64,000 nt of DNA from Trujillonella endophytica. Its GTDB lineage: Bacteria > Actinomycetota > Actinomycetes > Mycobacteriales > Geodermatophilaceae. The translations under genes and the position numbers were made by a program. Below the pieces are notes generated by a model, which was given only the letters and a program-made list of their open reading frames with translations, was not told the origin of the DNA and made no database searches. The DNA is taken from the NCBI RefSeq assembly GCF_900110555.1, contig NZ_FOEE01000008.1, positions 62,001-126,000 on the forward strand, in the 5' to 3' direction. Numbering within the stretch: position 1 is the first letter of the stretch; the number at the start of each line of letters is the position of its first letter. Shown in pieces: positions 1 through 46,914 of this stretch.

Positions 1-971
1 ACGAGGCCTGGCGGGTGCTGCTGGACATCGAGCGGATCGCGCCGTGCATGCCCGGCGCGGCGCTGGACTCCGTCACGGGTGACGACTTCACCGGCCGGGT
101 CAAGGTCAAGCTCGGCCCGATCAACCTGACCTACCAGGGCAAGGCGTCGTTCGTGGAGAAGGACGAGGCCGCCCACCGCGCGGTCATCGACGCCCGGGGC
201 AAGGACCAGCGCGGCAACGGCACGGCCGCCGCCGTCGTCACGGCGACGCTCGCGGCCGAGGGCTCGGTCACCCGGGTCGACGTCCTCACCGACCTCAACA
301 TCACCGGCCGACCGGCGCAGTTCGGCCGCGGCGTGATGACCGACGTCGGCAACAAGCTGCTCGGGCAGTTCGCCGACAAGCTCGCCGCCCAGCTCGGCGA
401 GGGCGACGCGCAGGGCGACGCCGACCGCGCCGAGAGCGCCGCGGCGACGGCCGCGGCCACGGTGAGCGGCGCCGCCGAGGAGGTGGCCGCCTCGGTCGAG
501 CAGACGCCGGGGGACACCGCGGCCGCCGAGACCGCCCGCAAGGCCGGCACGGCGGCGAAGAAGACCGCGGCAGCGGCCACCGACGCGACCGGTGCCGGCG
601 GCCGGGCCCCGGCCAAGAAGGCGCCGGCGAAGAAGGCGGCCCCCGCGGCGACCGACACGGCGCCCGCCGCTGTGGCCGGCGCTGCGCCTGCCGCGGCGAC
701 GTCAGCCCCGGCGGCAGGCGTGTCCGGCGGCCGGCCGAGCGGCCCGCCGTCGGGCCCCAGCGCCCCGCCCGCGCGGCCGGCCACCGGCGCCCCGGCGAAG
801 AGCTCGCCGTCCACGGTGCGGCCGCCGGTCGCCGAGCCCGAGCCGATCGACCTGCTCGAGGTCGCCGGCGGAGCGGCGCTGACCCGCTACGCCCAGCCGC
901 TGGCCGGGGTGGCCGCGCTGCTGCTCGTCCTCGGCATCGTCCTGCGCCGCCGTCGGCGCCGCCGCCGCTAG
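1..971 (+). CDS. CoxG-like SRPBCC protein with membrane-anchor tail (5' partial)
   Basis: The frame is open from base 3, so the true start lies before the window; 322 residues are visible. The first ~130 residues form an SRPBCC/CoxG fold (EAWRVLLDIERIAPCMPGA, then GRVKVKLGPINLTYQGKASF). A long Ala/Pro/Lys-rich linker with KKAPAKKA-type repeats follows, then one hydrophobic segment (PLAGVAALLLVLGIVL) and a run of eight arginines, the layout of a cytoplasmic domain tethered to the membrane. CoxG proteins partner molybdenum CO dehydrogenase and have been linked to quinone or membrane coupling; CO-dehydrogenase genes would be expected upstream, outside the window. The family call is solid; the partner is inferred. 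A strong hairpin follows the stop codon. Confidence 0.85.
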   Translation, partial: EAWRVLLDIERIAPCMPGAALDSVTGDDFTGRVKVKLGPINLTYQGKASFVEKDEAAHRAVIDARGKDQRGNGTAAAVVTATLAAEGSVTRVDVLTDLNITGRPAQFGRGVMTDVGNKLLGQFADKLAAQLGEGDAQGDADRAESAAATAAATVSGAAEEVAASVEQTPGDTAAAETARKAGTAAKKTAAAATDATGAGGRAPAKKAPAKKAAPAATDTAPAAVAGAAPAAATSAPAAGVSGGRPSGPPSGPSAPPARPATGAPAKSSPSTVRPPVAEPEPIDLLEVAGGAALTRYAQPLAGVAALLLVLGIVLRRRRRRRR

Positions 972-981
972 TCGTACCGAT

Positions 982-1022
982 CGGAGTCGCTCGGTGCCGG
1001 GAACCGGCACCGAGCGACTCCG
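982..1022. terminator. Bidirectional terminator hairpin
   Basis: Perfect inverted repeat with arms at 982-1000 and 1004-1022 and a 3-base loop (gaa). It lies between the plus-strand CoxG-like gene ending at 971 and the minus-strand hydrolase ending at 1024. There is no T-tract, as is usual in high-GC actinobacteria. The convergent position supports a shared terminator. Confidence 0.85.
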
Positions 1023-1023
1023 T

Positions 1024-1653
1024 TCACCGCCTGGGATGGACCTCGTCCAGCCAGGCCAGGGCGGCCGCGGCGACGAGGTCGGGGTTCTTCTTGAGCGAGT
1101 GGTCGCCGGGCACCGCGTAGACCGAGGCCGTGGCCCGGCCCTGCAGCGCGGCGGCGACGTCGGCCGGTGCCCCGAACGCGTCGGTCTCGCCCTGGACGAC
1201 GACCAGCGGCACCTCGACCGCGGTCACCTCGTCGGCGCGGCTCTTCTCGGGCCGGCCCGGCGGGTGCAGCGGGAACGCCAGCGCCAGGACGCCGTCCGCG
1301 CCGAGGGCGGCCGCGGTCCGGCAGGCCACCCGCGCGCCGGCGCTGCGGCCCCCGAACACCAGCGGACCCGCCAGCCGGCCGCCGTCGCGGAGGGCGCCGA
1401 GCACCGCCGTCCAGCCCTCGTCGAGCCGCGGCGGGGCCGGGGCGACGCGCTTGCCGGCGACCCGCCAGGGCTGCTCCACGCGCAGCACCCGCCAGCCGGC
1501 GTCGGCGGCGTCCCGGGAGACGGCGGCCAGGTCGACCGACTCCACGCCACCGCCGGCGCCGTGGCCGAGCACCAGGGTGCCGTGGACGCCCGACGGCGGC
1601 TCGTCGGCGTGCACCCGCGCCGGGCCGTGCGGGGTCGGGATCTCGACGGTCAC
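1024..1653 (-). CDS. KANL3/Tex30-type alpha/beta hydrolase
   Basis: A 209-residue protein starting at GTG 1653, where GTGA overlaps the stop of the upstream HAD gene by 4 bases; longer starts would run deep into that gene. It has the marks of the KANL3/Tex30 alpha/beta-hydrolase group: LVLGHGAGGG near the N-terminus, the nucleophile-elbow sequence FGGRSAGAR, the FPLHPPGRPE loop, QGETDAFG carrying the likely acidic residue, and PGDHSL with the likely catalytic histidine. The protein is cytosolic and its substrate is unknown. It is last in a coupled trio DedA-HAD-hydrolase. Confidence 0.8.
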   Translation of the reverse strand: MTVEIPTPHGPARVHADEPPSGVHGTLVLGHGAGGGVESVDLAAVSRDAADAGWRVLRVEQPWRVAGKRVAPAPPRLDEGWTAVLGALRDGGRLAGPLVFGGRSAGARVACRTAAALGADGVLALAFPLHPPGRPEKSRADEVTAVEVPLVVVQGETDAFGAPADVAAALQGRATASVYAVPGDHSLKKNPDLVAAAALAWLDEVHPRR

Positions 1654-2321
1654 GATGCGGGGAGGGCGAGCAGCGCGTCGACGGCGCCGCCCAGGTCCGC
1701 TGCCACCAGCGCGGCGGGGTCGTAGACGGCCGGGTAGCTGCGCTCCTCGCGGGGGAACCACACGCCGGTCAGCCCGGCCCGGACCGCGCCGTGCACGTCC
1801 CAGCCGTGGGCGGCGACCAGCGCCATCGCGGCCGGCTCGACGCGGCATTCGCCGGCGGCCCAGAGGTAGACCTCCCGGGCCGGCTTCCAGGCCCGGATGA
1901 GCTCGCTGGACAGGGAGCGCTCGACCAGCGGCGCGATCCCGGCGCGCTCCAGGCCGGCCTCGGCGACGCCGGGGGAGCCGTGGGTGAGCGTCACGACCCG
2001 GACGCCGGCCTCGACCAGCCGGCGCAGCGCCGCCTCGACGTCGGGGTGCGGGGTGAGGTCCAGGAAGCTGTCGGCGATCCCGCTGCGGACGGAGGGGGAG
2101 AGGTCGGTGAGCTGGGCGAGGGCGGCGTCGAAGGCGTCGCGGAAGCGGCACCACGTGCCCGTGGTGGCCGCCGCGAAGCCGGTGAGCAGCGTGCGGGCGA
2201 AGACGGTGGCCAGGAGCTCCGGTCGCTCGCCGTGCTCGACGAGGCCCGCGCGGATCGGGGCGAGGTCGAGCAGGGTCTCGTTGACGTCGAGGGCGACCAC
2301 CTCGGGGCGGCGGGGCGTCAT
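1650..2321 (-). CDS. Haloacid dehalogenase type II-like HAD hydrolase
   Basis: A 223-residue HAD-superfamily enzyme. Motif I is VALDVNETLLD, with nucleophile Asp in D-x-N rather than the phosphatase D-x-D, as seen in 2-haloacid dehalogenases. Motif II is VVTLTHGS, the conserved Lys is in IRAWKPAREVY, and the usual C-terminal block reads MALVAAHGWDVHGAVRAGL. The family converts 2-haloalkanoic acids to hydroxy acids, though many members have unknown substrates. The ATG overlaps the DedA stop by 4 bases and the stop overlaps the hydrolase start by 4 bases, so the three are translationally coupled. Fold certain; substrate inferred. Confidence 0.85.
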   Translation of the reverse strand: MTPRRPEVVALDVNETLLDLAPIRAGLVEHGERPELLATVFARTLLTGFAAATTGTWCRFRDAFDAALAQLTDLSPSVRSGIADSFLDLTPHPDVEAALRRLVEAGVRVVTLTHGSPGVAEAGLERAGIAPLVERSLSSELIRAWKPAREVYLWAAGECRVEPAAMALVAAHGWDVHGAVRAGLTGVWFPREERSYPAVYDPAALVAADLGGAVDALLALPAS

Positions 2322-2992
2322 GCCTGGTCGCGCTCGTCCACCGGGAGGTCCGCGCCCGCGGTCGGCGGACGGCGGAGCTTGCCGGTGGCCTTGCGGTAGA
2401 CGAACCAGACCACGGCGAGGATCACGACGGCGACGACGACGTAGTCCAGGTAGTGCAGGTTCGCCTCGATGAAGTCCCGCGCCAGCCAGCCGAGGGTGAC
2501 CAGCACCGAGTTCCAGATCAGGCTGCCGCCGGTCGTGTAGAGCAGGAACTGGCCGAAGGGCATGCGCACGACACCGGCCGGCACGGAGATGAAGCTGCGG
2601 ACGATCGGCACCATCCGGCCGAAGAACACCGCGGCCCGGCCGTGCCGCTCGAACCACTCGAAGGTCTTGTCGACGTCCTCGGTCTCCACCAGCGGCAGCC
2701 GGTCGAGGAAGGCGTGCGACCGGCGGGGACCGAGCGCCCGGCCGATGTAGTAGAAGAAGACCGCTCCGAGGACCGAGCCCACGGTCGCGCAGAAGACGAC
2801 CAGGAAGAAGTCCAGCGGGGTCTCGATCAGCACCCCGGCGGCTCCCAGGACGGCCTCGCTGGGAATCGGCGGGATGACCGTCTCGAGCAGGATCGCGAAG
2901 CCGACGCCGATCGGCCCGAGGGTGTCGACGAGGTCGAGCAGCCATGCGGTCAGACCACCCTCGTCGGAGCTGACGGCGGCGAGGAAGGACAT
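2318..2992 (-). CDS. DedA family membrane protein
   Basis: A 224-residue integral membrane protein of the DedA/VTT family. Visible marks are LLETVIPPIPSEAVLGAAG near the N-terminus, FFYYIGRALG, the FFGRMVPIVRSFISVPAG segment with the conserved arginines, and GSLIWNS. Four to five hydrophobic segments end in a basic tail. DedA proteins act in membrane homeostasis and, in some bacteria, recycling of lipid carriers such as undecaprenyl phosphate; the role here is not shown. It is the first gene of the minus-strand trio; the promoter should lie in the 70-base divergent gap to the amidohydrolase. Confidence 0.9.
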   Translation of the reverse strand: MSFLAAVSSDEGGLTAWLLDLVDTLGPIGVGFAILLETVIPPIPSEAVLGAAGVLIETPLDFFLVVFCATVGSVLGAVFFYYIGRALGPRRSHAFLDRLPLVETEDVDKTFEWFERHGRAAVFFGRMVPIVRSFISVPAGVVRMPFGQFLLYTTGGSLIWNSVLVTLGWLARDFIEANLHYLDYVVVAVVILAVVWFVYRKATGKLRRPPTAGADLPVDERDQA

Positions 2993-3062
2993 GGCTCCAC
3001 GGTAACGGCGCCGTCACGGGTGTCGGCCGGGCCGGCGGGGCGCGTGGGGCTAGCGTGCCGCC
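2993..3062. promoter_or_regulatory. Divergent promoter region with short dyad
   Basis: The 70-base gap between the divergent DedA and amidohydrolase genes must hold both promoters. It contains the near-palindrome GTAACGGCGCCGTCAC (3002-3017, one mismatch), close to the DedA start codon. A binding protein cannot be named from this alone. Confidence 0.4.
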
Positions 3063-4361
3063 ATGTTCCAACGTTTCACCGCCCGGGCCGTCGTCGTGGG
3101 GGACCGATCCGGCACCGTCGTCCCGGACGCCGTGGTCGACGTCGCCGACGGTCTGGTGACCTGGGTGGGTCCGGCCGCCGACGCCCCGCCGGCCGGCGAC
3201 GCCGAGGTCGTCGCGCTGCCCGGCGTGCTCCTGCCGGGCCTGGTCAACGCGCACTCGCACGCCCCGATGGTGCTGTTCCGCGGCCAGGGCGAGGGGCTGC
3301 CGCTGGACCGCTGGCTGGGTGAGGTGATGTGGCCCCGCGAGGCGCGGCTGACGGGGGACGACGTCGAGGTGGCTATGACCGCCGCCTCGGCGGAGCTGCT
3401 GCGGGCCGGGGTGACCACGAGCGTGGAGATGTACTTCTCCCCGGAGCGGATCGCCGCCGCGGTCGGCCGCACCGGGGCCCGCGCCGTGATCGCGACCCCA
3501 CTGGTCCCGCTGCCCGGCATGCCGCCGCTGGAGGAGCAGCTGGCCGCCGCCGTCGACCTGGCCGGCACCGCGCCGCACGACGGCACCGTCGAGTACGGCC
3601 TGGGCCCGCACGCCGCGTACACGGTGCCGCTGCCGCTGCTGCGGGAGGCGGCGGGACTGGCGCGGGATCGCGGCCTGCTGCTGCACCTGCACGTCGCCGA
3701 GACCGCGACCGAGGGCGGCGACCTGCTCGCGGCCCACGGGCTGTCGGTGCCGGCGCTGCTCGCGGCGCACGACGTGCTGGGCGGCCGGGTTCTGGCGGCG
3801 CACTGCGTGCACATGGACGACGGCGACCTCGAGCTGTGGCGCGAGTACGACGTCGCCGTCGCCCACTGCCCGGCCAGCAACGCGAAGCTGGCCAGCGGCG
3901 TGGCCCGGCTGCGGGACATGCTCGACCGCGACATCCGGGTGGGGCTGGGCACCGACGGGCCGGCGTCCAACGACGGCCTGGACCTCCTGGCCGACGCCCG
4001 GCTGGCGGCGCAGCTGGCCCGGCTGCGGGAGGCGTCGGCGACCGCGCTGACCGCCGCCGAGGCGCTGTGGCTGGCCACCGGGGCGGCCGCGGACGCGATC
4101 GGCCGCCCCGACCTCGGTCGGCTCGAGGTGGGCCGGCGCGCGGACCTCGTGCACGTCGACACCCGGGACCTGGCCTTCGAGCCGGTGGGCGACCCGGCCG
4201 ACGTGATCACCCACCTCGTCTGGTCCGGCGCCTCGCGGCTGGTGCGCGACGTGTGGGTGGGCGGCCGGCAGGTCGTGGCCGGCGGCGAGTGCACGACCGT
4301 GGACGCCGAGGCCCTGCGGATCGAGGTCACCGAGCGAGCGGCCCGCCTCGCCCGCCCCTGA
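3063..4361 (+). CDS. Amidohydrolase, MTA/SAH deaminase-like
   Basis: A 432-residue metal-dependent amidohydrolase of the TrzN/MtaD/SsnA group, likely a deaminase of an adenosine-type or cyclic amidine substrate. The metal-binding HxH is at about residues 64-66 (NAHSHAP), followed by the RGQGEGLPLDRWL stretch, LHLHVAETATE, AAHCVHMDD, AHCPASNAKL, and GLGTDGPASND carrying the active-site Asp. The C-terminal beta-sandwich half contains GRRADLVHVDT. The ATG is at the end of the short divergent promoter gap. A guanine deaminase or other TrzN-like hydrolase remains possible. Confidence 0.85.
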   Translation: MFQRFTARAVVVGDRSGTVVPDAVVDVADGLVTWVGPAADAPPAGDAEVVALPGVLLPGLVNAHSHAPMVLFRGQGEGLPLDRWLGEVMWPREARLTGDDVEVAMTAASAELLRAGVTTSVEMYFSPERIAAAVGRTGARAVIATPLVPLPGMPPLEEQLAAAVDLAGTAPHDGTVEYGLGPHAAYTVPLPLLREAAGLARDRGLLLHLHVAETATEGGDLLAAHGLSVPALLAAHDVLGGRVLAAHCVHMDDGDLELWREYDVAVAHCPASNAKLASGVARLRDMLDRDIRVGLGTDGPASNDGLDLLADARLAAQLARLREASATALTAAEALWLATGAAADAIGRPDLGRLEVGRRADLVHVDTRDLAFEPVGDPADVITHLVWSGASRLVRDVWVGGRQVVAGGECTTVDAEALRIEVTERAARLARP

Positions 4362-4370
4362 GCACGAGCA

Positions 4371-4426
4371 GTGTGCGATCCGTGACCGTTCCGACCGGTT
4401 TCCGGTCACCGGGCGCACAGTGCCCG
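4371..4426. repeat. 56-bp dyad repeat, copy A
   Basis: This sequence recurs at 5426-5481 with 44 of 56 identical bases and no gaps. The two copies flank the DUF559 gene. Each is itself an imperfect palindrome: the left end GTGCG..GTGACCG pairs with CGGTCACC..GCGCAC on the right, so the RNA or single strand could fold into a hairpin. It could serve as terminator, binding site or element boundary; this copy also follows the amidohydrolase stop codon. Confidence 0.75.
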
Positions 4427-4430
4427 TGTC

Positions 4431-4458
4431 GTCCACAGGATGAGCGTCTGTCCACGGG
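4431..4458 (+). promoter_or_regulatory. Twin GTCCACRGG motif upstream of DUF559 gene
   Basis: GTCCACAGG at 4431-4439 and GTCCACGGG at 4450-4458 are direct repeats 19 bases apart start to start. The second ends 48 bases before the ATG at 4507. The same arrangement occurs ahead of the DUF222-HNH gene at 30161-30188. TCCACA is the core of actinobacterial DnaA boxes (TTGTCCACA), so DnaA or another factor could bind. Confidence 0.55.
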
Positions 4459-4506
4459 TCCGTCGCGGCGCCTCCTCGCCCGCTGCGGGGGCCGCACGCT
4501 GCGGCC

Positions 4507-5436
4507 ATGGTGGTCGATCTGCGCAGCATCGTCGGGGCGGACGGCGCGATGCGGATCTCCGATGTCGCCGCCCGCACGGGCTCGACGAGCGTGTCCCGCT
4601 GGGTCCGGGAGGGGCGGCTGCTGAAACTTCTCCCGCACGTCGTCGTCCTGCCCGAGGACGCCGGCCGGTGGCGCACGCGCGCGGTGGCGGCCGCCCTCTC
4701 GACGCGCGGCGTGCTGAGCCATGCCTCCGCGCTGGCGCTCTGGGACCTCGCCGAGCCGGACGGACGGGTGCACGTCGCGATCGACGCCCGCCGTCGCGCG
4801 CCCGAGCCGGTCGACTGGCTCGACGTGCACCGGGTCACCGGCCTGTCGCCGCGGACGCGCAGGGGGCTCCCGGTCACGGCACCGGCTCGCAGCGTCGTGG
4901 ACGCGTGGGGCGCCGCACACCAGGACGGCGGGTCCGCCGCTGCCGTCCGGGAGGTCCGGGCCGCCGCGATATCCGCCGTCCGCACCGGACGGTCCGACGT
5001 GCCGGAGCTGCGACGGGAGCTGACCCGCCGGCCGCAGCTGCCCGGCCGGGGGTTGCTGTTCGAGCTCGTGAGCCTGGTCGCCGCCGGGGCGCAGAGCGAG
5101 CTGGAGATCTGGGGCGTGCTGCACGTGCTGGACGTACCGGGACTCCCGCCCTACCGGCAGCAGCACCGGGTCCAGCTGCCCGGGACGCACGCCGACCTCG
5201 ACGTGGCCTGGCCGGAGGTGCGCCTCGCGGTCGAGCTGGACGGCGCCGCCTTCCACGGCAGCGCCGAGCAACGGGAGCGGGACCTGCGCCGGGACGCCGC
5301 GCTCGCTGCTCTGGGATGGCTCGTGCTCCGGTTCAGCTACCGCCGGTTGACCCGGGAGCCGGCCGCCTGCCGAGCGGAGATCGCTGCGGTCTACCGGACC
5401 CGGCTCGCGCTCGCCGCCACGCACGGTGTGCGCTGA
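4507..5436 (+). CDS. AbiEi-like/DUF559 domain protein
   Basis: A 309-residue protein. The N-terminal ~70 residues look like the winged-helix AbiEi-type antitoxin domain (MRISDVAARTGSTSVSRWVREGRLL), followed by the middle AbiEi-like segment (RGVLSHASALALWDL). The C-terminal ~90 residues are DUF559, a Vsr/PD-(D/E)xK-like nuclease fold (LDVAWPEVRLAVELDGAAFHG, then RDLRRDAALAALGWLVLRFSYRRL). Such fusions are common, often multi-copy, in actinobacteria and of unknown function. No AbiEii-type toxin gene is adjacent, so a standard type IV toxin-antitoxin pair is not supported. The gene is bracketed by 56-bp repeats and preceded by a twin GTCCACRGG motif. DNA binding and cleavage are inferred. Confidence 0.8.
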   Translation: MVVDLRSIVGADGAMRISDVAARTGSTSVSRWVREGRLLKLLPHVVVLPEDAGRWRTRAVAAALSTRGVLSHASALALWDLAEPDGRVHVAIDARRRAPEPVDWLDVHRVTGLSPRTRRGLPVTAPARSVVDAWGAAHQDGGSAAAVREVRAAAISAVRTGRSDVPELRRELTRRPQLPGRGLLFELVSLVAAGAQSELEIWGVLHVLDVPGLPPYRQQHRVQLPGTHADLDVAWPEVRLAVELDGAAFHGSAEQRERDLRRDAALAALGWLVLRFSYRRLTREPAACRAEIAAVYRTRLALAATHGVR

Positions 5437-5481
5437 GTGCCCGTTCCAGGCCGAAACCGGTCACCTGGCGCACAGTGCCCG
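5426..5481. repeat. 56-bp dyad repeat, copy B
   Basis: Second copy of the sequence at 4371-4426. It begins inside the last codons of the DUF559 gene and includes its stop codon. The last 15 bases are identical in the two copies and include GGCGCACAGTGCCCG. A 14-base fragment of the same end occurs in reverse orientation at 18044-18057. Confidence 0.75.
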
Positions 5482-5574
5482 GCAGATCGCTCCCCGGCAG
5501 CCCCGGTCAGCAGCGGGCGGGACGGCCCTCGCGGCGGGGGCGGACCCGGCCGGTCGGCTGGTAGACAGGGCGTC

Positions 5575-7089
5575 GTGGCCGGACCCCGCGACGTCGACGC
5601 GTCCTTCCTCGCCCTCCCGCTCTCCGCGCTCACCGACGCCGCGCTGACCCGTGCGGTCGACCTCGGCTGCGAGCACGCCGACATCCGGGTGGAGCGCATC
5701 CGCACCCAGTCGATCAGCCTGCGCGACGCCCGGCTGGAGAGCCTGGCCGACGGCGAGGACCTCGGGCTGGCCGTCCGCGTGGTGCACGAGGGCACCTGGG
5801 GCTTCGCCGCGGGCGTCGTCCTCACCGCGGCGGAGGCGGTGCGGCTGGCCGAGGAGGCCGTGGCCGTCGCCCGGGTCTCCGCGGCGCTGAGCAGCGACCG
5901 GGTGGAGCTCGCCCCCGAGCCGGTGTACCCGGACGCCGTCTGGGTCTCCGACCACGAGATCGACCCGTTCACCGTGCCCGACGGGGAGAAGACGGCGCTG
6001 CTCACCGAGCTGTCCGAGCGGCTGATGGCCGCCGACGGCGTCGAGCACGTGCAGTCGGGCTGCACGGCGGTGAAGGAGCAGAAGTACTACGCCGACACCG
6101 CCGGCACCCGCACCCGCCAGGAGCGGGTCCGCATCCACCCGCAGTTCACCGCGCTCACCGTCGACCGGGCCACCGGCGCGTTCGAGAGCATGCGCACCCT
6201 CGCCCCGCCGGTCGGCCGCGGCTGGGAGTACCTCACCGGCGGCAGCTGGGACTGGGACCGCGAGCTCGCCGAGATCCCCGAGCTGCTGCGGGAGAAGACC
6301 AAGGCGCCGAGCGTCGAGGCCGGCCGCTACGACCTGGTCGTCGACCCCTCGAACCTGTGGCTGACCATCCACGAGTCGGTCGGGCACGCCACCGAGCTGG
6401 ACCGGGCGCTGGGCTACGAGGCCGCCTATGCCGGCACCTCGTTCGCCACCGTCGACAAGCTGGGGTCGCTGCGCTACGGCTCCGAGCTCATGCACGTGAC
6501 CGGTGACCGCACCGCCGTCCACGGGTTGGCGTCGGTCGGCTGGGACGACGAGGGCGTCGAGGCCCAGCGGTGGGACATCGTGCGCGACGGCGTCCTCGTG
6601 GGTTACCAGGTCGACCGGAACATGGCGCGCCTGCGCGGGATGGAGCGGTCCAACGGCTGCGCCTTCGCCGACTCCCCGCGGCACGTGCCGGTGCAGCGGA
6701 TGGCCAACGTGTCGCTGCAGCCGGCCGCGGGCGGGCCCTCCACCGAGGAGCTGATCGCGGGCGTGGACCGCGGCGTCTACGTCGTCGGCGACAAGAGCTG
6801 GTCGATCGACATGCAGCGCTACAACTTCCAGTTCACCGGGCAGCGCTTCTACCGGATCGAGGGCGGGAAGCTGGCCGGACAGTTGCGCGACGTCGCCTAC
6901 CAGGCGACGACGACGGACTTCTGGGGGTCGATGCGGGCGCTGGGCGGCGAGCAGACCTACGTGCTCGGCGGGGCGCTGAACTGCGGCAAGGCCCAGCCCG
7001 GCCAGGTCGCCCCCGTCAGCCACGGATGCCCCTCGGCGCTGTTCGAGGGCGTCTCCATCCTCAACACGGTGCAGGAGGGCGGCCGGTGA
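5575..7089 (+). CDS. tldD: TldD family metalloprotease
   Basis: A 504-residue TldD, the catalytic subunit of the TldD/TldE cytosolic protease known from microcin B17 maturation and CcdA degradation. The zinc motif HExxGH is at residues 266-271 (HESVGH). GTG 5575 is chosen because it gives the usual family length and begins just before the recognisable family sequence; the upstream in-frame stretch overlaps the 56-bp repeat and is low-complexity. Its partner TldE follows after a 103-base gap carrying a REP-like hairpin. Native substrates in actinobacteria are not known. Confidence 0.93.
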   Translation: MAGPRDVDASFLALPLSALTDAALTRAVDLGCEHADIRVERIRTQSISLRDARLESLADGEDLGLAVRVVHEGTWGFAAGVVLTAAEAVRLAEEAVAVARVSAALSSDRVELAPEPVYPDAVWVSDHEIDPFTVPDGEKTALLTELSERLMAADGVEHVQSGCTAVKEQKYYADTAGTRTRQERVRIHPQFTALTVDRATGAFESMRTLAPPVGRGWEYLTGGSWDWDRELAEIPELLREKTKAPSVEAGRYDLVVDPSNLWLTIHESVGHATELDRALGYEAAYAGTSFATVDKLGSLRYGSELMHVTGDRTAVHGLASVGWDDEGVEAQRWDIVRDGVLVGYQVDRNMARLRGMERSNGCAFADSPRHVPVQRMANVSLQPAAGGPSTEELIAGVDRGVYVVGDKSWSIDMQRYNFQFTGQRFYRIEGGKLAGQLRDVAYQATTTDFWGSMRALGGEQTYVLGGALNCGKAQPGQVAPVSHGCPSALFEGVSILNTVQEGGR

Positions 7090-7114: not shown

Positions 7115-7166
7115 CAGGCTGGGGGCACCTCCCGCTTGCGGGGGACAGCGACCGAGGAGCGGAGCG
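7115..7166. repeat. REP-like palindromic repeat between tldD and tldE
   Basis: The tldD-tldE gap contains GCTGGGGGCACCTCCCGC, then TTGCGGGGGA and CAGCGACCGAGGAGCG. A CCCGC/GCGGG stem (7131-7141) is followed by a further G run. From memory, elements of this form (GGGGGCACCTCCCGC..GCGGGGG) recur between genes in several actinobacterial genomes; only one copy is in this window. It may attenuate transcription between the two protease subunits. Confidence 0.5.
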
Positions 7167-32155: not shown

Positions 32156-33334
32156 TCAGGCGGTGCCGGCCGCCTCCCGGCGACGGGAGCCCGCCACCGT
32201 GCCGAGCCCGGCCACCAGGCAGAGCGCGGCGATCAGCAGCATCCCGTCGAGATCGGCCCCCGTGTAGGCCAGCTCGGCGGCGCCGGTCAGCGCCGGGCCA
32301 CCCGAAGCCGCCCCGGCCCAGACGGCGCTCGCAGGGCCGCCGAGGACCGCCGGCTGCGCGGCGCCCACCGCGGTGCCGGGCGTCCCGGGAGTCCCCGGGG
32401 TGCTCGGCGTGCTCGGGGTGCCGGGACCGGTTGCGCTGCAGCTTCCCCCGCCGCTGCCGAGCAGCCCGACGCCGGTGCCGCAGACGGTCACCGGGACGTC
32501 GACGTCGACCCCCGGGCCGTTGGTGCCCGGGCCTCCCGTGCCGGGAGCACCGGGGGCGACGGCGCAGGCGCCCGAGGCGTCACCCAGTGCGCCGACGCCG
32601 TTGCCGCAAACGGTCACCGGCACCTGCACGTCCGCGAGCGAGCCACCCGTGCCGGAACCGCCGGCCACCGGGCCTCCCGTGCCGGCAGCACCGGGAGTGA
32701 CGGCGCAGGCGCCCGAGGCGTCGCCCAGCGCGCCGATCCCGTTGCCGCACACGGTCACCGGCACCTCCACCTCTGCGAGCGAGCCACCCGTGCCGGACCC
32801 GCCGGCCGCCGGACCTCCCGTGGGGGCACCGGGAACGACGACACAGGCGCCCGAGGCGTCGCCCAGCGCGCCGATCCCGTTGCCGCACACGGTGACGGGC
32901 AGCGAGATGCCGAGCAGGCCGCCGTCGCTGCCGGCAGGCGCCGGAGCGGTGCCGGACGCCGCGGCCTCGCCGAGCACACCCACGGCGTTTCCGGCGACGG
33001 TGACCGGCACGCTGACGTCGGCGGGCTCCGCGACCGGTGGCGATGCGGGCGCCTGCGTCGCGGTCGCCCCCAGCAGGCCGACACCGTTGCCGCCGACGGT
33101 CACCGGCACGGACGCGGACAGACCGCCGAGGTCGACGCGGACGTCGGCGGTGAGCGCCGGCAGGTCGATGCCCGGCGCGGGGACGTCGCCGAGAACGGCG
33201 AGCGCGTTGCCGGTCACGGTGACCGGCACGGTGACGTCGAGGCCGTCGTCCGCGGACGCGACCCCCGTTCCGACGGCCCACAGGCCCCCGGTGAGCAGCG
33301 CGGCCTCCAGGCCGCGACGGATCCAGGTGTTCAT
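32156..33334 (-). CDS. Chaplin-like multi-repeat protein with LAxTG sortase signal
   Basis: A 392-residue secreted wall protein. A signal peptide (MNTWIRRGLEAALLTGGLWA, cleavage near ASA) is followed by seven chaplin-like repeats of form VPVTVxGN(G/A)xxxLG. Repeats 1-3 have T, G or A where chaplins have Cys (TGN, GGN, AGN); repeats 4-7 have two cysteines (CGN or CGT, then GAC or GSC). Long Pro/Gly/Thr spacers follow, then ELAYTGAD, a hydrophobic segment and a basic tail, a class E-type sortase signal. Streptomyces long chaplins have only two chaplin domains. Amyloid or hydrophobin-like surface activity is inferred. The start ATG has AGGAGAGG upstream. Confidence 0.88.
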   Translation of the reverse strand: MNTWIRRGLEAALLTGGLWAVGTGVASADDGLDVTVPVTVTGNALAVLGDVPAPGIDLPALTADVRVDLGGLSASVPVTVGGNGVGLLGATATQAPASPPVAEPADVSVPVTVAGNAVGVLGEAAASGTAPAPAGSDGGLLGISLPVTVCGNGIGALGDASGACVVVPGAPTGGPAAGGSGTGGSLAEVEVPVTVCGNGIGALGDASGACAVTPGAAGTGGPVAGGSGTGGSLADVQVPVTVCGNGVGALGDASGACAVAPGAPGTGGPGTNGPGVDVDVPVTVCGTGVGLLGSGGGSCSATGPGTPSTPSTPGTPGTPGTAVGAAQPAVLGGPASAVWAGAASGGPALTGAAELAYTGADLDGMLLIAALCLVAGLGTVAGSRRREAAGTA

Positions 33335-46774: not shown

Positions 46775-46914
46775 CCCCCGGGCAATTCCGCGCTTCTGCA
46801 CCGCGCGGAAGCGCGGAATTGCACCGCGCGGAAGTGCGACATTGCACCGGGGCGGAAGCGCGGAATTGCACCGCGCGGAAGCGCGAAATTGCACCGGGCA
46901 GAAGCGCGGAATTG
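46775..46914. repeat. Inverted unit plus five 23/24-bp tandem repeats, AATTCCGCGC family
   Basis: One unit in forward orientation (46775-46798) faces five tandem units in reverse at 46799, 46822, 46845, 46869 and 46892, with the consensus CACCGCGCGGAAGCGCGGAATTG (first ten then GAAGCGCGGAATTG). The junction forms a perfect 14-base stem (46783-46796 with 46808-46821). The same core occurs at 9083-9178. Confidence 0.85.

Follow-up and report, generated by a model that had tools for sequence, protein, structure and literature searches.

Matched palindromes at both ends of DUF559 genes in Trujillonella endophytica and its relatives: candidate REPtron-like units with a nuclease in place of a transposase

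The spread of dispersed palindromes in bacterial genomes is poorly understood. The described system closest in layout to the locus reported here is the REPtron, a RAYT (TnpAREP) gene with flanking and dispersed REPs, in which palindromes bracket a single enzyme gene and non-autonomous copies lie mostly between genes (PMC3733652, PMC8266576). The TIRtron, a TIRYT gene with long terminal inverted repeats, has matching terminal repeats that are also dispersed in some genomes (PMC3733652). The enzymes that these two papers tie to dispersed palindromes are the tyrosine transposases RAYT and TIRYT. From a different context, the EDxHD homing endonuclease I-Bth0305I has been reported to form dimers on a target site just short of 60 bp (PMC3943268). 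AbiEi and Rv2827c are described as binding inverted repeats in promoters and as autoregulators, and the AbiEi-family protein Rv1044 is reported to have bound no cognate promoter (PMC7319586). For a DUF559 protein of Caulobacter, a function in mismatch repair has been suggested (PMC12907096). In open-licence papers, we found nothing that links DUF559 to palindromic repeats.

We analysed a window of 64,000 nucleotides from Trujillonella endophytica, in which a block of 1.1 kb separates an amidohydrolase gene from the gene for TldD. The block had been described in a first-pass annotation as a self-contained unit with a REP-like layout, a description supported by dispersed copies of the palindrome, by cognate palindromes at other DUF559 genes, and by an empty site with a solo palindrome for a paralogous unit. 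With a probability of about 0.6, we assign it to a family of REPtron-like units, with the order palindrome, box, gene for an AbiEi-like/Vsr-like nuclease and palindrome, which have this nuclease instead of a RAYT transposase, and for which we infer binding, cutting and movement. The differences from the REPtron are clear: the enzyme is an AbiEi-like/Vsr-like nuclease, and no HUH/Y1 tyrosine transposase was found by Pfam or fold comparison; the palindromes are about 60 nt long; the GTAG tag is missing at the ends of the window copies and of a 30-copy consensus. As RAYT enzyme and GTAG tag are absent, the unit is not classed as a REPtron. It differs from the TIRtron, as described in PMC3733652, in that the TIRtron enzyme is a tyrosine transposase and that each end repeat is here itself a palindrome.

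The unit in the window and its protein

The features of the unit are as follows.

4363-4428, + strand: upstream palindrome (copy 1, core 4371-4426), which starts directly 3' of the amidohydrolase stop codon
4430-4439, + strand: TCCACA box CGTCCACAGG, just inside the upstream palindrome
4507-5436, + strand: gene of 309 aa, with an AbiEi-like N-terminal half (about 1-192) and a DUF559/MTES_1575 Vsr-like nuclease as C-terminal half (about 194-301), according to profiles, model and fold comparison
5426-5481, + strand: downstream palindrome (copy 2), in which the gene's stop codon lies and at whose end (5481) the BLAST alignment with the filled site in Blastococcus sp. CPCC 205250 stops

The core of copy 1 begins at 4371, 9 nt past the amidohydrolase stop, and the stop codon of the DUF559 gene (5434-5436) lies within copy 2; the two copies bracket this one gene, as had been stated. 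Recomputation gave the same similarity as originally noted, with 44 of 56 positions identical without gaps (4371-4426 against 5426-5481), and an extended alignment over 64 nt has 77% matches. Pairs of 56-mers with at least 44 matches, at offsets of 60-3000, do not occur in 10 windows with shuffled 3-mers. The only other such pairs in the 64-kb window, at about 32.5-33.1 kb and at 46.8 kb, represent tandem arrays (about 32510-33120 and 46787-46860; the periods are approximately 138-141 and 70 bases). The core GGTCACCKGGCGCACAGTGCCC, which is common to both copies, has two matches in the window at up to 3 mismatches; both are exact, and 0.01 would be expected.

Both copies are imperfect palindromes, with 17 of 29 possible pairs each, and to this extent the first-pass annotation stands. 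When folded as single-stranded DNA, copy 1 is a strong hairpin (z -3.6; 1 of 200 shuffles as good) and copy 2 a weak one, which folds no better than shuffled sequences (z 0.1; 107 of 200 as good). Rfam, applied to window positions 4200-5700, returned nothing with E up to 1. Between tldD and the gene that follows, at about 7125-7150, there is a further GC-rich inverted repeat, around CTCCCGCTTGCGGGGG.

The TCCACA box resembles what we take to be the actinobacterial DnaA box, TTGTCCACA. In related loci it often has the form TTGTCCACAG, just inside the upstream palindrome region, and 40 of 53 DUF559 loci have TCCACA in the 200 nt that precede the gene, compared to 36 of 1937 random 200-nt pieces. 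This strong signal comes from a first, mostly same-family set. The box is not clearly enriched phylum-wide (9 of 39 loci against 15 of 117 in-gene pieces), and a DnaA-like box was rejected as a general feature of the units.

The N-terminal half of the protein is matched by PADLOC AbiEi profiles (best E 5e-11). MTES_1575 and DUF559, both in the C-terminal half, are the sole Pfam matches of the gene, in line with the initial remark that a transposase is missing. Of the features of an IS element or MITE (a transposase, terminal inverted repeats and a target-site duplication), a transposase domain was revealed neither by Pfam nor by fold comparison in this one gene of the unit. In the predicted structure (mean pLDDT 93, pTM 0.76), residues 1-192 superpose on the AbiEi antitoxin (Z 13.3, rmsd 4.9, 181 aligned) and on Rv2827c (Z 9.5). 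Residues 194-301, approximately, superpose with 92-96 residues on Vsr-type nucleases: 3hrl (Z 11.3), 3r3p, which is the catalytic domain of I-Bth0305I (Z 10.8, rmsd 2.8, 96 aligned), and Vsr itself (1vsr, Z 8.4). The C-terminal half belongs to the Vsr-like nucleases by fold, and by sequence the likeness is weak. Five residues (E200, D232, E243, D245, H250) are invariant in an alignment of 32 sequences, from which L209 was left out due to an internal stop. Nucleotidyltransferase-like chains that match residues 48-193, approximately (MenT1, Z 8.7), and other all-helical matches (VIA-align) were read as common arrangements. According to the model, the protein is predicted to join an AbiEi-like DNA-binding half to a Vsr/EDxHD-like nuclease half.

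With I-Bth0305I, which is reported to have a long target (PMC3943268), and with Vsr the unit shares the nuclease fold, but the gene was not seen inside an intron, it carries an AbiEi-like DNA-binding half, and its palindromes are paired. With the AbiEi and Rv2827c antitoxins described in PMC7319586 it shares the N-terminal fold and upstream inverted repeats, but here a nuclease is fused and repeats occur at both ends. As opposed to AbiE type IV toxin-antitoxin systems, there is no adjacent gene for an AbiEii nucleotidyltransferase toxin, the neighbours being the amidohydrolase and TldD.

Cognate palindromes across the DUF559 family

A relative of the DUF559 gene is present in 36 of 39 related genomes (own genome counted), and PF18741 is matched in 64 of 149 genomes sampled over the phylum Actinomycetota. 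Upon scanning for palindromes, many DUF559 loci were found to have alike palindromes on both sides, with a sequence that varies between loci. Three such units, in addition to that of the window, occur in the window's own genome (L003, L004 and L005; L068, L069 and L070 when longer stretches are taken). As in the REPtron, the gene is flanked by palindromes of the same family.

For 53 loci (54 were tried, L064 being left out as it was not recovered), the mean score between upstream and downstream palindrome is 49.3, compared to a permuted mean of 27.8 and a maximum of 42.9 in 5000 permutations; some permuted pairs are raised by synteny, so that the bias works against the observed effect. After 80 loci from named records had been added, a score of at least 40 was found in 64 of 119 loci but in only 5 of 1477 similarly spaced control pairs from flanking DNA. 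The 119 loci are the usable ones among 120 distinct loci out of 133: 13 were dropped because their gene ends were identical, and one because its flanks were short. A phylum-wide set of 40 hand-picked loci from 29 genomes, with open frames of about 290-380 aa, left 39 usable loci once L337 had been dropped (contig edge). The threshold is reached by 21 of these 39 and by none of 1482 cross-locus pairs. No pair at threshold was found in 55 of the 119 and in 18 of the 39 phylum-wide loci. A palindrome of about 60 bp on both sides, with a sequence that differs by gene, is common in the DUF559 family.

Palindrome similarity and protein similarity are correlated (rho 0.36) over 3082 non-syntenic pairs from the 83 loci with pairs among 158 examined. 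None of 500 Mantel permutations is as high, their maximum being 0.20. In a family subset of 60 loci, with synteny included, rho is 0.55 against a permutation maximum of 0.23. Judged by such similarities, these comparisons show the palindrome type to follow the protein type.

Near clpX, which was recognised from its translation, DUF559 units are found in either orientation. A quick tree was built from 70 proteins, with rows shorter than 240 aa and most loci outside the named records left out. In it, all 16 rows of the 'same' orientation are found in one clade (100*) of 40 rows, and 19 of the 20 'opposite' rows are outside of it. Recent inversion as the main cause of the opposite orientations was rejected on these grounds; L223 is the single clpX row that does not fit the split. 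Mean palindrome similarity is 36.4 among 'same' units, 16.9 between 'same' and 'opposite' units, and 17.4 within the 'opposite' class, which is diverse.

We also compared each locus with its counterparts at the same site in other species. The clpX and amidohydrolase site classes were assigned just among loci from named records plus L001, and the loci were unselected, so that the following values replace earlier figures from loci picked for high scores. The upstream and downstream palindromes of one locus are more alike than those taken from different species, with means of 49.6 versus 30.9 (clpX same), 37.5 versus 21.0 (clpX opposite) and 56.8 versus 45.3 (amidohydrolase). Between species, upstream palindromes score 48.2 with each other in the clpX 'same' class, about as high as the own pair, and 59.7 at the amidohydrolase site, which is higher. 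In only 6 of 17, 7 of 20 and 2 of 5 loci, respectively, is the own downstream copy the best partner of the own upstream copy. The own similarity exceeds the median of the orthologous upstream-upstream and downstream-downstream comparisons in 8 of 17, 17 of 20 and 5 of 5 loci.

Solo copies, empty sites and filled sites

In what follows, G000 denotes the window's own genome, G001 and G002 its congeners, and other G numbers the genomes of relatives. At least four solo copies of the window-type palindrome occur in G000:

C10:146601-146666, 79% identical to its own complement
C17:41451-41507
C16:240859-240910
C22:13635-13702, weaker (E 0.001)

These named copies rest on longer matches. Pattern counting in the own genome was of limited help: with up to 3 mismatches allowed, the pattern had 44 matches and its reverse had 23. 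According to ORF lists, the inspected copies lie near gene ends; one is located about 11 nt past the stop of an apparent protohaem farnesyltransferase gene, and a ctaA-like gene follows in convergent orientation, as read from the translations. The search of relatives that had been suggested at the outset covered 20 of 23 family genomes and found the window type in G000, once in G002, and as one weak partial match each in G004 and G018; it is absent from the remaining 16 of the 20.

The palindrome type of the paralogous unit L070 has at least 62 matches in G000, on both strands, none in the congeners G001 and G002, and 1-11, several of them weak or partial, in 13 of the other 17 genomes; as 40 first-look candidates per genome were scored, these figures are lower bounds and absence refers to those candidates. 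An alignment was made of 30 distinct G000 copies, which include both ends of the unit itself; three of the 30 form a short array, and about 28 are solo copies. By a GC-frame heuristic, 22 of 25 sites lie between genes, the other 3 being called within a frame. Among the 19 intergenic sites for which both neighbours were called, 14 are located between convergent genes, some neighbours being several hundred nt away. Palindromes are thus dispersed in the intergenic DNA of their own genome, as is the case for the REPtron. In many units both ends carry a palindrome type of the unit's own. The two types that were searched genome-wide occur in addition as scattered solo copies, most of them at the ends of genes and many between convergent ones. 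On this comparison, palindrome families appear to be largely species-specific.

Congener G001 has, at a site orthologous to that of a G000 solo copy with the GATCATCGGC palindrome, a long palindrome of a different type (L372, G001:C44:61900-63000, at about 545-620). We had predicted that it belongs to a G001 DUF559 gene, which was not confirmed: its type is found at none of the G001 DUF559 loci examined. Other strong palindromes occur at the same intergenic position upstream of tldD in L088, L089, L097 and L104.

The closest relatives of the window unit, from Blastococcus sp. CPCC 205250 (L192, 75%) and three Modestobacter (66-68%), are found at the same amidohydrolase gene and form one clade with it (98*). 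The idea of one cassette that moved in recently was rejected on account of these same-site units, and the window unit is old at the amidohydrolase site. As the clade extends over two genera, Blastococcus and Modestobacter, movement would be rare, and mobility itself is inferred. When G001 and G002 are compared to L192, both flanks align at 87-92%, and L192:2340-3483, with both palindromes and the gene, is missing. In place of the unit there are about 41-42 nt with one hairpin. The whole block is absent, with precise boundaries, from this site in both congeners, as the first-pass annotation had envisaged, but the retained hairpin has another sequence and is not one copy of the window repeat.

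Gene and repeats are not at the same place in all relatives: none of the amidohydrolase loci from 17 relatives (of 22) that were compared aligned across the L192 unit. No DUF559 gene was found upstream of tldD in 29 tldD loci of relatives (31 relatives matched; the upstream stretch was 1.5 kb for most). The alignment between window and L192 stops at the end of copy 2, with tldD beyond. At the G004 site orthologous to that of paralogous unit L070, the gene is missing and a single palindrome of the L070 type is present. With respect to the same flank, the gene has the inverted orientation in G005 and is collinear in G022. G004 has an L070-type unit elsewhere (C12:288753-289865), the flanks of which match none of the G000 sites compared.

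Proposed mechanism and alternative explanations

As far as sequence comparison can show, these units have cognate palindrome pairs, a coupling of palindrome and protein type, dispersed and largely species-specific copies, and presence or absence with boundaries at the palindromes. We propose that the AbiEi-like half would recognise the palindrome, which is consistent with the inverted-repeat binding described for AbiEi and Rv2827c (PMC7319586), and that the Vsr-like half would nick or cut it. Occasionally, repair or recombination might then place a copy of the palindrome, and sometimes of the gene as well, in a new or empty site, and recombination between the two end palindromes could delete the gene, so that one solo palindrome is left. 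Solo copies would be tolerated at gene ends, where they possibly act as terminators. The resemblance in length between the palindrome and the I-Bth0305I target (PMC3943268) is a suggestive parallel only, and the window protein may have a role in repair. More tentatively, and with somewhat less than even confidence, we suggest a class of transposase-free mobile palindromes in Actinomycetota, where an AbiEi-like/Vsr-like nuclease recognises and nicks its own palindrome of about 60 bp and spreads palindromes, rarely the gene, by homing-like repair, each lineage having its own enzyme-palindrome pair. If true, a second, unrelated enzyme would have the same layout, which would provide a testable role for DUF559 proteins and many natural enzyme-palindrome pairs for studies of DNA recognition; it would also mean that a toxin-antitoxin DNA-binding fold has been joined to a repair/homing nuclease fold.

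Nothing would need to be mobile if the palindromes were operators and regulatory or chromosome-organising sites of the AbiEi-like protein, with the nuclease half serving in repair or defence. The AbiEi fold of the N-terminal half, together with the autoregulation via promoter inverted repeats described for AbiEi and Rv2827c (PMC7319586), speaks for such a view, as do the tracking of protein type by palindrome type and the frequent occurrence of units at conserved sites. It leaves unexplained, however, why a second copy is present at the 3' end of the gene, why paralogue-type copies are found between convergent genes (14 of the 19 intergenic sites for which both neighbours were called), and why the whole block can be absent with palindromes at the boundaries; we consider it unlikely.

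The position of the inspected window-type copies near gene ends, the many paralogue-type copies between convergent genes, and the other hairpins at the same places in congeners would all suit ordinary bidirectional transcription terminators that became similar by local duplication or convergence. Yet the sequence identity exceeds what pairing needs, both ends of DUF559 genes match far beyond the null of 5 in 1477, and the palindrome families are largely species-specific, which makes this explanation improbable. Still a little less credible is a passive cassette, in which the palindromes are only substrates for homologous recombination that deletes, inverts or swaps the gene, the nuclease not acting on them. 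The solo palindrome at the orthologous L070 site in G004, the reversed orientation of the gene with respect to one flank in G005, and the opposite orientations near clpX fit with this, but the latter mostly represent old separate clades and not mainly recent flips, and neither the approximately 28 dispersed copies of one type nor the tracking of protein type by palindrome type would be accounted for. We retain the REPtron-like unit as the preferred reading.

Several loci show rearranged or decayed forms. In G005 (C18:111433-142057), two L070-like genes (L180, L190) are found in opposite orientation about 27 kb apart, at a place where G000 has one unit; units may here bound an inversion or a duplication. 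Decayed-looking DUF559 units are a 41-aa remnant in G000 (L006, C21:53087-53209) and L183 from contig C13 of G001, where about 500 nt are missing inside. Finally, the units from records of Bacillus sp. AZ43 (marked unverified; L206) and of a Chloroflexi MAG (L259) fall inside the Geodermatophilaceae tree, so that these titles are probably wrong, or the bin mixed.
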